This document shows, piece after piece, positions 2,682 to 9,568 of a DNA stretch of 64,000 nucleotides. Source of the stretch: Roseococcus pinisoli (lineage in GTDB: Bacteria; Pseudomonadota; Alphaproteobacteria; Acetobacterales; Acetobacteraceae); assembly GCF_018413645.1 (NCBI RefSeq), contig NZ_JAHCDA010000001.1:434001-498000 (forward strand). Direction: 5' to 3'. The position numbers were made by a program, and so were the translations under genes. Under the pieces are notes generated by a model. It did not search any database. It was not told where the DNA came from and saw only the letters and a list, made by a program, of their open reading frames with translations. Position 1 is the stretch's first letter. Each line of letters starts with the position of its first letter.

Positions 2682-4949
<2,268 letters not shown>

Positions 4950-5051: not shown

Positions 5052-5282
5052 TCAAAACATCACCGAAACGACCGGCCGCTCCCGCGGCTCGCTCGGCTCG
5101 GGCAGGATCATGCCGTCGTTCAGCGCGTTCCAGACGGCGGTCTGCAGCGCCTCCGCGCCATTGCGCAGCGCCTCCTTCTCATCGGCGCCCCAGGCCTGGA
5201 CGCCTGGGAAATCCGGGAAGGAAACGGTCACCCCGTCGACCCGGTCGACCAGTTCGGCGGGGTAGCTCACGGTCTCGTTCAT
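5052..5282 (-). CDS. HicB-like antitoxin-family protein (orphan)
   Basis: A 76-residue protein carries the HicB beta-alpha fold: a GVTVSFPDFPGVQAWG strand-turn is followed by a DEKEALRNGAEALQTAVWNAL helix. It ends abruptly at RPVVSVMF, where longer HicB proteins continue into a helix or DNA-binding tail. No HicA-type toxin (small dsRNA-binding-like protein with a catalytic His) is encoded next to it. The ATG at 5282 lies 19 bp after the stop of the flavin monooxygenase, so the two probably share a transcript. HicB domains alone may bind HicA toxins in trans or act as small regulators. A frame extending upstream overlaps the monooxygenase and is not favoured. Confidence 0.7.
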   Translation of the reverse strand: MNETVSYPAELVDRVDGVTVSFPDFPGVQAWGADEKEALRNGAEALQTAVWNALNDGMILPEPSEPRERPVVSVMF

Positions 5283-5301
5283 CGCTGTCTCGCTTTGGGG
5301 C

Positions 5302-6633
5302 TCATGGCGCGTGGCGGTGGCGCGGCGGCACAAGGCCGAGATTCTCGCGCAGGGTGGGGCCAGCATACTCGTCGCGGAACAGGCCGCGGGCCCGCATCTC
5401 CGGCAGGACCATCTCCACGAATTCGTCGAGGCCGAGCGGCAGCACCGGCGGGCAGAGATTGAAGCCGTCGGCCGCGCCCGCCTCCACCCATTCCTCCATG
5501 CTGTCGACGATGTCCTTGGGCGTGCCCACGAAGACGCGCCCGCCGAAGCCGGCCGCCACCTTGGTGTAGAGCTGGCGGATGGTGAGGTTGTCGCGCCGCG
5601 CCAGCGCCAGCGCCTTGGCCGCCATACTGCGGATCCGCGGGTCCGGCGGCTCTGGCACGGGCCCGTCCACTGGATAGGCCGAGAGGTCGCCCATCTGCTG
5701 GTAGAGGTAGGAGAGGCCGAGCTCGGGATCGACGAGGGCGTTCATCGCATCGAACTTGTCCTGCGCCTCCTGCCGCGTGCGGCCGATGAAGAGCGTGAGG
5801 CCCGGCATCACCTTCAGGCTGTCCGGCTCCCGCCCGTATTTCGCGAGGCGGCCCTTGAGGTTCGCGTAATAGGCGCGCGCCGGCTCCAGGTCGAAGAAGG
5901 AGCAGTAGACCACATCCGCGCTGGCCGCCGCGATCTCGAGCCCCTGTTCGGAGGCGCCGGCCTGGACCAGCACCGGGCGGCCCTGCGGCGTGCGCTTGAT
6001 GGTCAGCGGCCCCTCGACCTGGAAGTGCTTCCCCTTGTGATGGAGCGTGTGCATCTTCGACTGGTCGAACATGATGCCGCTCGCCTTGTCGAAGACGGGC
6101 GCATCCTCCTCCCAGCTGTCCCAGAGGCCCTTCACCACCTCCACGAACTCGGCCGCGCGCTCGTAGCGCAGCTCGTAGTCCATGTGCTTCTCGCGGTTGA
6201 AGTTGCGCGCCTCGATCTCGGACCAGGAGGTCACGACGTTCCAGCCTGCGCGCCCGCCGCTCAGATGGTCCAGCGAGGCCCATTTGCGGGCGACGTGATA
6301 GGGCTCGTTGTACGTCGTCGAGGCCGTGGCCACGAGGCCGATATGCGAGGTGACCGAGGACAACGCGGAGAGCAGCGTCAGCGGCTCCAGCTCGAAGGTC
6401 TGGTGCGAGCGCCGCAGCGCGCCGGGCGGCCGGTCCTGCGTGCGCAGGCCCACGCCGTCGGCCAGGAAGACCATGTCGAGCTTCGCCTTCTCGGCGGTCT
6501 GCGCGATGTAGCGGTAATGGCTGAATTTCGACGCGGCGTCGGGATCGGCCGACGGATGCCGCCAGGCGGCCGCGTGATAGCCGAGATAGCGCATCGACAG
6601 GCCGAGGCTGATCTGCTTCGGGCCAGGCATCAT
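5302..6633 (-). CDS. NtaA/SnaA/DszA-family FMN-dependent monooxygenase
   Basis: The protein, about 443 residues, is a flavin-utilising monooxygenase of the luciferase-like superfamily, NtaA/SnaA/DszA branch. These enzymes use FMNH2 from a separate reductase to oxidise aminopolycarboxylates, organosulfur compounds or antibiotics. Recognisable blocks are LDMVFLADGV near the N-terminus, LSGGRAGWNVVTSW, and the VLVQAGASEQG flavin/phosphate region. The frame is open up to 6903, but ATG at 6633 is preferred: GAGGG lies 6 bp upstream and the family-type N-terminus (KQISLGLSMRY) starts just after it. The upstream stretch also overlaps the divergent kinase gene. No flavin reductase is adjacent. The substrate is unknown; a HicB-like gene follows directly. 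Confidence 0.87.
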   Translation of the reverse strand: MMPGPKQISLGLSMRYLGYHAAAWRHPSADPDAASKFSHYRYIAQTAEKAKLDMVFLADGVGLRTQDRPPGALRRSHQTFELEPLTLLSALSSVTSHIGLVATASTTYNEPYHVARKWASLDHLSGGRAGWNVVTSWSEIEARNFNREKHMDYELRYERAAEFVEVVKGLWDSWEEDAPVFDKASGIMFDQSKMHTLHHKGKHFQVEGPLTIKRTPQGRPVLVQAGASEQGLEIAAASADVVYCSFFDLEPARAYYANLKGRLAKYGREPDSLKVMPGLTLFIGRTRQEAQDKFDAMNALVDPELGLSYLYQQMGDLSAYPVDGPVPEPPDPRIRSMAAKALALARRDNLTIRQLYTKVAAGFGGRVFVGTPKDIVDSMEEWVEAGAADGFNLCPPVLPLGLDEFVEMVLPEMRARGLFRDEYAGPTLRENLGLVPPRHRHAP

Positions 6634-6889
6634 CCGGCCCTCGCAAGGGTGGCGGGAGATCGGGAGATGGAGCGGTGTCGTCGGCCGTTCATGCCCCATC
6701 CTGGCCCGGAAACGCCGGGGACGCACGCCGCGGTGCCGCATGGCGAGGATTGATTTTAAGGAAATTGCGCCGGCAAATGCGTCATCCTCCTTTTCCTGCT
6801 CTCGCCCCCGCTGAAAGCCGCCCCTGGATGAATGGTCTGCCGCGCAAGGATGGGTCGGAAGACGGGCGCCCCGGAAGCCGGATGCCCGC

Positions 6890-8587
6890 ATGAGCACCGA
6901 CAAGTCCGCGCCGAGGGTGATCGCCGACCGCTACGAGGTGCGGGACCTGATCGGCCGCGGCGCCTTCGGCGAGGTCTTCGAGGTCTACGACCATCGCCTC
7001 AACCGCCTGGTCGCGCTGAAGACGCTGCCCATCACCCAGGGCGGCGGCTCGGAGGCGGAGGAGGAGCGGCGGCGCTTCCAGATGGAGGCGCGCTCCGTCG
7101 CCCGGCTGTCCCATCCGGGCATCGTCACGGTCCACGACTTCGGCGAGACGCCGGACTTCGCCTGGATCGCGATGGAGCTCATCATCGGCGAGACGCTGAA
7201 GGACGTCCTCGACCAGGGCGACCGGCCGAGCCTGGCGGAGACGGTGCGCGTCGTCTGCGCGCTGCTGGACGCGCTGCACTACGCCCATGGGCGCGGCATC
7301 GTGCACCGGGACGTGAAGCCCGCGAACGTCCTGCTGGCGCTGGGCGCCGAGGACGGGCTGGGCGCGGTCCGCCTCGCGGATTTCGGCATCGCGCGCATCG
7401 GCGAGGCGCAGACCGTCGCGGGCCAGATCATCGGCACGCCGACCGCGATGTCGCCGGAGCAGGTGCGCGGCGAGGAGGTGGACCTGCGCTCCGACCTCTG
7501 GTCGGCCGGCGTGGTGCTCTACCAGATGCTGACGGGCAAGCGGCCCTTCTCCGGCCAGATGCCGGCGATCTTCAACAGCATCCTGACCTCCCGGCCGGCG
7601 CCGCCCTCCGAGCTCGTGCCGGAGCTGCCTCAGGCGCTCGACGAGGTGGTCGCCAAGGCGCTCGCGAAGAATCCGAAGGACCGGTATCCGGACGCCCTGA
7701 CGATGGCCGCCGCGATCCGCGCCGCCGCCACGCCCCCGCCGGTCTGGGACATCTTCCACGATTCGCAGGGCGACACCGTCCGCCTTCCCGCGCCGCCGCC
7801 GGCACCTGCCCCGCCGCCGGCGCCCGCCCGCCGAAGCTTCGGCGTCCCGGCGCTGGTCGCGAGCTTCGGCGCGGGCCTGGTCTGCGGCGTGCTTCTCTGC
7901 CTCGCCTTCTGGCCGCGCGACCTGATCGGAACCGGAGTGCCTGCGGCGGCGCCAGTCACCGAATCGGCGGTCCCTGTCCCGTCACCGCTTGCCGGCAGCG
8001 GGAACGCGCTGCTGTCGCCGGCGGGCGAACCGCCGCCCCTCCCGCCCGAGCCCGCCCTGCCGAGCCAGGCGGATTTCTGCATGGTGCCGGCCAAGGACCC
8101 CCGCGTGGTCCGCCCGTTGGCCGAGCCGGTCGCCGAGGAGCCGCAGGAGGCGGCGCCTGTGCCGCCTCCCGCTCCCCCCGTCGAGGCGCCCTCGTCGCCG
8201 CCGGCGGCCACCGCAGCGCCCCTCCCGGCCCCGGTCGTCCGCAGCGCCGCCGGGCCGCATTGCGGGGCCCAGCGCCTCGCCGTCGAGCCCAGCGACCATG
8301 CCGGATTCGGGCGTATCGCCCTCAACTGGGGCGTGCCGATTCGCTACAGCTTCCGCCTGGTCGAGGGAGGCGCCTCCGTCCGCTTCCCGGGCGCCGACTG
8401 CCTGCCGGACCTCGCCCAGGCCGAGATGCCGCGCAACGTGCGGGGGATCCATGTCGAGGAGGACGGCCAGGGCGTGCGGATCGAGGCCATGCCCGGCGCG
8501 CGAATCCAGTTCTTCCGGCAGAATCGGAACCGCGCCGTCATCGACATCTTCGACACGCCCGAGTCGCACGCCGCCGCCCCGCGCTGA
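6890..8587 (+). CDS. Transmembrane Ser/Thr protein kinase with periplasmic AMIN-like C-terminal domain
   Basis: This 565-residue Hanks-type kinase has all key catalytic features: glycine loop GRGAFG (22-27), Lys44 in VALK, HRD at 139-141, Asn146, DFG at 164-166, and SPE in place of APE at 188-190. A proline-rich juxtamembrane segment leads to one transmembrane helix (about 319-341). A long Pro/Ala-rich stretch then connects to a folded-looking region at about 465-556. Its alternating strand pattern (GRIALNWGVPIRYSF, GVRIEAMPGARIQFF, AVIDIFDTP) resembles AMIN-type peptidoglycan/polymer-binding domains. Cys397, Cys458 and Cys504 would lie in the periplasm. It is divergent from the monooxygenase gene. 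The signal sensed and the substrates are unknown; a cell-envelope sensor is inferred from topology. Confidence 0.88.
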   Translation: MSTDKSAPRVIADRYEVRDLIGRGAFGEVFEVYDHRLNRLVALKTLPITQGGGSEAEEERRRFQMEARSVARLSHPGIVTVHDFGETPDFAWIAMELIIGETLKDVLDQGDRPSLAETVRVVCALLDALHYAHGRGIVHRDVKPANVLLALGAEDGLGAVRLADFGIARIGEAQTVAGQIIGTPTAMSPEQVRGEEVDLRSDLWSAGVVLYQMLTGKRPFSGQMPAIFNSILTSRPAPPSELVPELPQALDEVVAKALAKNPKDRYPDALTMAAAIRAAATPPPVWDIFHDSQGDTVRLPAPPPAPAPPPAPARRSFGVPALVASFGAGLVCGVLLCLAFWPRDLIGTGVPAAAPVTESAVPVPSPLAGSGNALLSPAGEPPPLPPEPALPSQADFCMVPAKDPRVVRPLAEPVAEEPQEAAPVPPPAPPVEAPSSPPAATAAPLPAPVVRSAAGPHCGAQRLAVEPSDHAGFGRIALNWGVPIRYSFRLVEGGASVRFPGADCLPDLAQAEMPRNVRGIHVEEDGQGVRIEAMPGARIQFFRQNRNRAVIDIFDTPESHAAAPR

Positions 8588-8754
8588 CGGCTTGCCGCCC
8601 CGCGCCGCACGACCCATTTTCGCCGGAGCAAGGGCCCCTCCCCCGCTGGACAAGGAGGGCCGTCGCCTTCAAGGCGGCGTCGGGCGCGAAGGCGCCAGCC
8701 CACGAGGCGGGGCCGAGGCTCCGGGACAAGGACTAAGGATTTGAAGATTGGGAA

Positions 8755-8840
8755 TGGTGCGGTCGAGAAGATTCGAACTTCCAAGGGGTTTCCCCCACCA
8801 GCACCTCAAGCTGGCGTGTCTACCATTCCACCACGACCGC
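8755..8840 (-). tRNA. tRNA-Leu (anticodon GAG)
   Basis: An 86-nt leucine tRNA with a long variable arm reads on the minus strand from 8840 to 8755. The acceptor stem GCGGTCG pairs with CGACCGC and is followed by the encoded ACCA end. The anticodon arm CCAGC/GCTGG encloses TTGAGGT, giving anticodon GAG for CUC/CUU codons. The T arm contains GTTCGAAT. CCA is genomically encoded. Confidence 0.95.
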
Positions 8841-8850
8841 AGACGGGGGC

Positions 8851-8879
8851 CGTGTAGCGCATGATTTCGAAAGCCACAA
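8851..8879 (-). promoter_or_regulatory. Candidate sigma-70-type promoter of tRNA-Leu, inside the lipB start
   Basis: On the minus strand TTGTGG (-35) is separated by exactly 17 bp from TACACG (-10). The -10 ends 10 bp before the mature tRNA 5' end. It overlaps the first 19 bp of the lipB coding region on the other strand. This is a consensus-like match judged by eye. Confidence 0.5.
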
Positions 8880-9568
8880 CTCACCCCGACGCGGAAATCC
8901 GCTGGAAGATGTCGGAAGGCCTCACGCCCTACCCGGAGGCCCTCGCCGCCATGGAGGCGAGGGTCGCCGGAATCCGTGCCGGCACGGCCGCGGAGGCCGT
9001 CTGGCTGGTCGAGCATCCGCCCACCTACACCGCCGGCACCAGCGCCAGGCCCGAGGAGCTGATCGACCACCGCTTCCCGCATTTCGCGGCGGGGCGCGGC
9101 GGGCAATGGACCTATCACGGGCCCGGACAGCGCACGGCCTATGTGATGCTGGACCTCCAGAAGCCGCACGGGCCCGTGCCGGCACGCGACATCCGCGCCT
9201 ATGTCCACGGCCTCGAGGAATGGATGATCCGCGCGCTGGACCGCTTCAACGTGCGGGGCGAGCGGCGCGAGGGCCGGGTCGGCATCTGGGTGACGAAGCC
9301 GGGCGAGGGCTCGCGGGAGTTCAAGATCGGCGCCATCGGCGTGCGGGTGACGCGCTGGGTGAGCTGGCACGGCATCGCGCTGAACGTGGAGCCGGACCTG
9401 TCGCATTTCGGCGGCATCGTGCCCTGCGGCATCGCCGAGCACGGCGTCACCAGCCTGCACGACCTCGGCATCCTCGCGACCATGGAAGAGGCCGACGCGG
9501 CCCTGATGGCCGCCTGGGGCGAGGTCTTCGGGGATCAGGCGGCGGTCGCCCAGCCCACCGAGGCCTGA
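8861..9568 (+). CDS. lipB: Octanoyl-[acyl-carrier-protein]:protein octanoyltransferase LipB
   Basis: LipB moves octanoyl groups from acyl carrier protein to lipoyl domains of 2-oxoacid dehydrogenases and the glycine cleavage H protein. The 235-residue protein has the family landmarks: [13 protein letters not shown], the WTYHGPGQ loop, catalytic Lys in FKIGAIGVR and nucleophile Cys in GIVPCGI. The start at 8861 keeps the family-typical [10 protein letters not shown]-terminus. No Shine-Dalgarno is seen before the ATG, and the start is only 20 bp from the 5' end of the divergent tRNA-Leu. Its own promoter must therefore overlap the tRNA gene, or the message has almost no leader. lipA is not in the window. 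Confidence 0.93.

Follow-up and report, generated by a model that had tools for sequence, protein, structure and literature searches.

The window, which is the whole 64,000-nucleotide stretch of Roseococcus pinisoli DNA analysed in this study, carries at 6890..8587 on the plus strand an ORF starting with ATG and encoding a protein of 565 aa, which was annotated from the ORF itself, Pfam matches and orthologues as a transmembrane Ser/Thr kinase with a predicted C-terminal AMIN domain. The Hanks-type protein kinase domain covers residues 15-266 (6932..7687; Pfam PF00069, E 1e-47) with its motifs intact, the G-loop, HRD and SPE motifs being all found and the catalytic set being complete (K44, E66, H139-D141 and D164). 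Lys44, Glu66 and DFG 164-166 are unvarying in all six aligned kinases, the DFG position being taken from this six-kinase alignment. Downstream of the kinase domain, on the same strand, are located a putative single transmembrane helix at about residues 322-340 (7853..7909), assigned by hydropathy only (Kyte-Doolittle peak of 2.40 over 19 residues), a Pro/Ala-rich linker of 115 aa (residues 341-455; 7910..8254; 47% P+A), and the AMIN domain (residues 456-556; 8255..8557), delimited by HMM boundaries, an AlphaFold2 model and the structural match to AmiC and PilQ. This domain includes a Cys pair, Cys458 (8261..8263) and Cys504 (8399..8401), that is invariant in the kinases of this type. The location of the tail after the hydrophobic segment and the Pro-rich linker would place it in the periplasm or envelope, and the Cys pair is compatible with an oxidising compartment. 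In the other six readable kinases the linker ranges from 59 to 271 aa [note that the value of 213 aa for the Roseococcus kinase is overlong, the hydropathy peak having fallen on an Ala-rich stretch and missed the true helix, which is visible in the alignment].

Neither PASTA nor WD families were found among the Pfam matches at E<=10 or among the NCBIfam matches for the 565-aa protein. All the NCBIfam matches are confined to the kinase region, and the PASTA-kinase model NF033483 stayed below its cut-off of 450 bits with a score of 290, aligning with residues 8-285 only. The original prediction of a Ser/Thr kinase followed by a transmembrane helix, a Pro-rich linker and an extracytoplasmic tail that is neither PASTA nor WD agrees well with these results, and a chance layout is ruled out by the full-length relatives with the same layout in other genera.

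The kinase gene is located between a gene for a luciferase-like monooxygenase on the opposite strand and the tRNA-Leu gene, which is followed by lipB. The end of the monooxygenase gene is overlapped by a HicB-like antitoxin ORF (5052-5366; PF15919, 28.0 bits for a cut-off of 27). Neither a sigma-70-type promoter nor a terminator was called in 6500-8900, and a PP2C_2 search of the genome gave a single match, on contig C7, away from the kinase. As to the conservation of this arrangement, the six neighbours of the kinase were searched around ten relatives. lipB adjoins the kinase in Roseococcus sp. SYP-B2431 (L096), with maeB and a DEAD helicase gene nearby, and in a Rubritepida MAG (L109) on a cut contig. 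At the other eight loci, including one from the genus of the window (L101, genome G014), none of the six was found, four of these eight being short or cut (L095, L097, L099 and L103). No conserved operon partner was thus found among the six neighbours at the ten loci.

The identity of the tail was examined first by sequence. The tail from the window gave no Pfam match at E<=10, the AMIN-like family PF24837 and the AMIN family PF11741 included, and since PF11741 found no match at E<=0.001 across the whole genome, the domain is invisible to the direct profile in this genome. A PDB sequence search with an alignment of 8 rows returned nothing but 2k4v at E 0.34. Using an alignment of 36 homologous domains, PF24837 matched 34 rows and PF11741 matched 10 at E<=0.1, and His15, Arg20 and Asp97 are unvarying across all 36, kinase tails among them. 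After scanning the eight kinase-type tails singly, one from Neoroseomonas (L080) was above the AMIN cut-off (23.1 bits for 20.5), six matched one or both of the two AMIN profiles below the cut-off, and that from the window matched neither.

Two AlphaFold2 models were then compared with known structures. Model 1 was built from the 8-row alignment, of which three rows are kinase tails and five are N-terminal domains from other proteins (pLDDT 82.9), and model 2 from the 36-row alignment (pLDDT 92.3). In model 2 the C-terminal 100 residues or so form one eight-stranded domain. Z-scores were obtained by structural realignment of the best 1000 chains from Foldseek. The best match of model 2 was E. 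coli AmiC (4bin; Z 11.4, 2.9 A over 101 residues), followed by PilQ (4av2, Z 10.9; 4aqz, Z 10.8; 3jc8, Z 10.5), the Synechocystis protein 5h3k (Z 9.6), of which the AMIN status is not established, and PflA (9leq, Z 8.6). For model 1 the identical six entries were on top with Z of 8.5-10.1, the next being 7.2. The Foldseek E-values themselves are weak, with none at <=0.001, PilQ B2 being first (3.9e-3) and AmiC second (1.9e-2). Small heat-shock chains appear from 3.3e-2, close to PilQ 4av2 at 3.2e-2, and make up most of the fold-search lists, as would be the case if the domain were a generic beta-sandwich of the alpha-crystallin/CS type unrelated to AMIN. After realignment, however, the small heat-shock chains reached Z of 7.9 at best against 8.6-11.4 for AmiC, PilQ and PflA, and their TM-scores by query length stayed at or below 0.53 among the rows listed against 0.62-0.71 for AmiC and PilQ; in addition, the sequences of the relatives pick the two AMIN profiles. 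The small heat-shock fold was rejected for its lower structural rank despite the close Foldseek E-values, and we consider an unrelated sandwich very improbable. On the predicted structure, then, the tail of the kinase is an AMIN domain. The single beta-rich, AMIN-like domain proposed originally for residues 455-565 was confirmed in this modelling, with similarity above all to the AMIN domains of AmiC and PilQ, and the range was correct, the folded part being about 456-556.

In order to know how widely the fusion is distributed, several sets of genomes were searched. Among 41 genomes including that of the window, the full kinase was found again in G008 and G014, and a fragment representing 76% of the kinase at a contig end in G001. 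When two peptide patterns taken from the kinase were run against genomes representing 84,980 species, a search in which diverged relatives may escape detection, 42 relatives were obtained, of which the eleven nearest (L095-L104 and L109) were examined for the tail. Six carry it: Roseococcus sp. SYP-B2431 (L096, the same record as G008), Neoroseomonas nitratireducens (L098, G269), Rhodovarius lipocyclicus (L100, G107), R. crocodyli (L102, G257) and two Acetobacteraceae MAGs (L099, and L101 from G014). Three others are cut by contig ends (L095 from Plastoroseomonas hellenica, L097 from Roseomonas rubea and L109 from Rubritepida sp.), and L104 is a short kinase without the tail. The remaining one, L103 from a MAG (frame 2699-3997), belongs to the same kinase clade and keeps the transmembrane helix without the AMIN tail, owing either to loss or to an effect of MAG assembly. 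The readable fusions, seven in total with that of the window, are all from Acetobacteraceae, and the expected presence of the fusion in other genera of this family was indeed found.

A profile of the kinase tail, which reaches close AMIN relatives only, was used for a wider scan. Within 397 genomes of the family, six gave matches of at least 108 bits (G008, G000, G269, G257, G107 and G202), the G202 match being a tail fragment truncated at the contig start, so that any kinase part would lie beyond it. The next match under these is at 88.5 bits, and from there on most are in long MotK-like frames (see below). In the class (385 genomes) and the phylum (299 genomes), only the tail of the window itself exceeded 72 bits, the lower matches being mostly in frames longer than 900 aa, and none of the 29 new loci from the class scan had the domain and a kinase motif in one frame. 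No match was found for the tail in 72,556 plasmid records. Given the reach of the profile, independent kinase-AMIN fusions may exist in far phyla. The rarity of the fusion and its scattered distribution, seen even inside the genus of the window, indicate that it is not a core regulator of the wall.

The origin of the fusion was analysed with two trees. The kinase tree included the best 33 of 68 distinct domains, rows shorter than 220 aa being dropped and the L109 fragment hence being absent. In this tree ten kinases lie on one side of a branch with support of 93/92, recovered in 96% of the bootstrap trees; seven of them have the tail, two are cut by contig ends and L103 lacks it. Sister to this group stand four kinases from the same genus, all of them shorter. 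The tail tree was built from 36 hand-picked rows out of 56 distinct ones [note that the label TPR in this tree is the default for any row other than kinase, secretin or PG-binding], and the seven kinase tails and the G202 fragment (L067) form one clade with support of 98/94. The simplest reading of these sequence trees would be a single fusion event in an ancestor of the carrier genera, with later loss or uneven retention; transfer of the fusion between genera is also possible.

The nearest non-kinase relatives found for the tail are the N-terminal domains of MotK-like flagellar proteins, and the computation shows that the tail and these AMIN domains are of common descent. The name MotK-like was given to the long non-kinase copies because an AMIN-like N-terminus is described for MotK of Cereibacter sphaeroides, a protein required in the rotation of Fla2, and the genes for MotK homologues are described near motE (PMC10954123). 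The genome of the window carries one such copy, a protein of 977 aa with an N-terminal AMIN-like domain (L031 4761-7694; also in L198) and without Pfam TPR matches at E<=0.01, at the end of a flagellar cluster (L198 10128-16694, contig C6 of G000). Pfam identified in this cluster FliL, a CheY-like receiver and, in a MotE-like ORF, a weak match to MgtE_N, and flgH, flgA, flgG, flgF, fliM and cheZ-like genes were recognised by eye. The tail profile matched 157 of the 397 family genomes, those with the kinase counted in, and 126 of the 385 class genomes, most of the frames listed for the latter being about 1000-1400 aa and several carrying two copies. Other proteins with this domain were also noted. 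This AMIN-like domain is also found N-terminally in two secretins (L075 3217-5466 and L077 2100-4271). In Pfam, L075 matched T2SS-T3SS_pil_N and Secretin as well as BON, the last just short of its cut-off, with L077 similar by eye, which suggests AMIN on a secretin of the Cpa/Tad type, not of the PilQ type. L076 2500-3852 and L078 2472-4070 encode apparently secreted proteins (by eye) in which the AMIN-like domain is accompanied by a match to PG_binding_1 that exceeds the cut-off in L078 but not in L076, giving each protein two possible wall-binding modules.

The kinase tails are distinguished from these other copies by the Cys pair. Among 113 distinct domain copies, all seven kinase tails have Cys at the positions corresponding to Cys458 and Cys504. 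The other 106 copies include 104 that lack Cys at either position and one that has just the first; the single copy among them with the full pair is the contig-cut L067, which groups with the kinase tails. The association is significant by Fisher's test (p 2e-10), with the reservation that the copies are related and the test is hence not an independent one. The two Cys occupy positions 3 and 49 of the domain, where the model has the first immediately ahead of strand 1 and the second following strand 4, and they probably form a disulfide staple in the AMIN domain of the tail. The same restriction of the pair to the kinases could be taken for a redox switch through which the kinase detects oxidative or envelope stress in the periplasm, but the simpler assumption for an oxidising compartment is a disulfide with a structural role, and we regard such a switch as doubtful.

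The results of computation in this study are the presence of a kinase domain and a hydrophobic segment, the AMIN fold, the descent of the tail and its recurrence in one clade; the function of the kinase-AMIN protein is a good but provisional inference. We propose a single-pass inner-membrane Ser/Thr kinase with the catalytic domain in the cytoplasm at the N-terminus, the topology being predicted, of which the transmembrane helix and the long Pro/Ala linker would carry the AMIN domain, probably disulfide-stapled, into the periplasm. The AMIN domains of AmiC and PilQ are described to bind septal or polar peptidoglycan (PMC10653833, PMC12403147). By analogy with these, the AMIN domain of the kinase probably binds peptidoglycan of the septal or polar wall and places or gates the kinase there, a reading that we favour. 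Binding to the wall would concentrate or dimerise the kinase, leading to autophosphorylation, and in this way the protein would operate much as a PASTA kinase does, but through an unrelated module for wall binding. A more specific version, offered tentatively, is that the septal or polar mark read by the AMIN domain of PilQ, and perhaps of MotK, might be converted to cytoplasmic Ser/Thr phosphorylation, linking maturation of the pole or septum to motility or division, with the disulfide tuning or gating the response.

The AMIN domain could instead be only an address label that keeps a constitutively active kinase near substrates at the division site or pole, with no signal passed. AMIN is reported as the localisation module of amidases and PilQ (PMC10653833, PMC12403147) and proposed as a wall anchor in FliO and MotK, and a linker as long and as rich in Pro and Ala as that of the window's kinase is a poor route for conformational change. 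Clustering, however, needs no rigid linker, so that this explanation and the clustering proposed above overlap, and an address label alone leaves the kinase-specific Cys pair unexplained; we hold it possible, at clearly lower confidence than the wall-binding reading in general. AMIN domains may also serve in protein complexes, since the N-terminal region of PflA (AMIN plus a loop) was solved with PflB, although the contact described is by the loop (PMC11870540). Accordingly a periplasmic protein partner, for instance a flagellar component, might be the ligand in place of peptidoglycan. The nearest non-kinase relatives are MotK-like and lie beside flagellar genes in the genome of the window, MotK interacts with MotE and MotB2 (PMC10954123), and the six kinase genomes (G000, G008, G014, G107, G257 and G269) and G202 each have a further match outside the kinase, that of G107 in a contig-cut frame. 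This co-occurrence is weak evidence, such matches being common in the family anyway; the interactions of MotK, as described there (PMC10954123), are not assigned to its AMIN part, and the genes that adjoin the kinase in the window are not its neighbours in other genera, lipB in L109 apart. We consider a protein partner rather unlikely and keep peptidoglycan binding as the preferred reading.

Comparison with known systems places the protein between several of them. With the AMIN domains of AmiC and PilQ it shares the fold over the whole domain (Z 10.5-11.4) and, in its relatives, weak but repeated profile matches; the difference is that AMIN is here C-terminal, is joined through a transmembrane helix to a Ser/Thr kinase and has the Cys pair. 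MotK, a motility protein of the periplasm, contains no kinase, and its layout of an N-terminal AMIN, a long helical-repeat region and secretion is unlike that of the kinase at the N-terminus, transmembrane helix and AMIN at the C-terminus; the Cys pair is likewise absent from nearly all the non-kinase copies. The PASTA kinases PknB, StkP and PrkC have in common with it a Hanks kinase and, by prediction, the layout of one transmembrane helix and an extracytoplasmic module, the helix and topology of the window's kinase being assigned by hydropathy only, and differ in the PASTA repeats, none of which are listed for this protein. The PASTA module of these kinases is thought to read the cell wall. 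Within the same genome a paralogous kinase (L038 3237-5339, contig C7 of G000) has 44% identity over residues 13-456 and also a long Pro-rich linker, but it carries a DUF4384-like C-terminus (E 3e-4, below cut-off) and stands on a separate branch of the kinase tree. No AMIN-kinase is described in those parts of the literature that were searched, a scope outside which the 2008 AMIN paper falls.

Two known parts, a kinase and an AMIN domain, are thus joined in this protein in a combination that is both new and rare. On wall amidases, PilQ, FliO, PflA and MotK, the AMIN domain is described to place or anchor machines of the envelope (PMC10954123, PMC12403147, PMC11870540, PMC10653833). The kinase-AMIN protein of these Acetobacteraceae would be a membrane receptor built from such a wall module, and it may report the state of the wall inward. 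To our knowledge, few wall-sensing Ser/Thr kinases are understood in Gram-negative bacteria. The fusion would allow a direct question to be asked, whether a defined state of the septal or polar wall switches phosphorylation.
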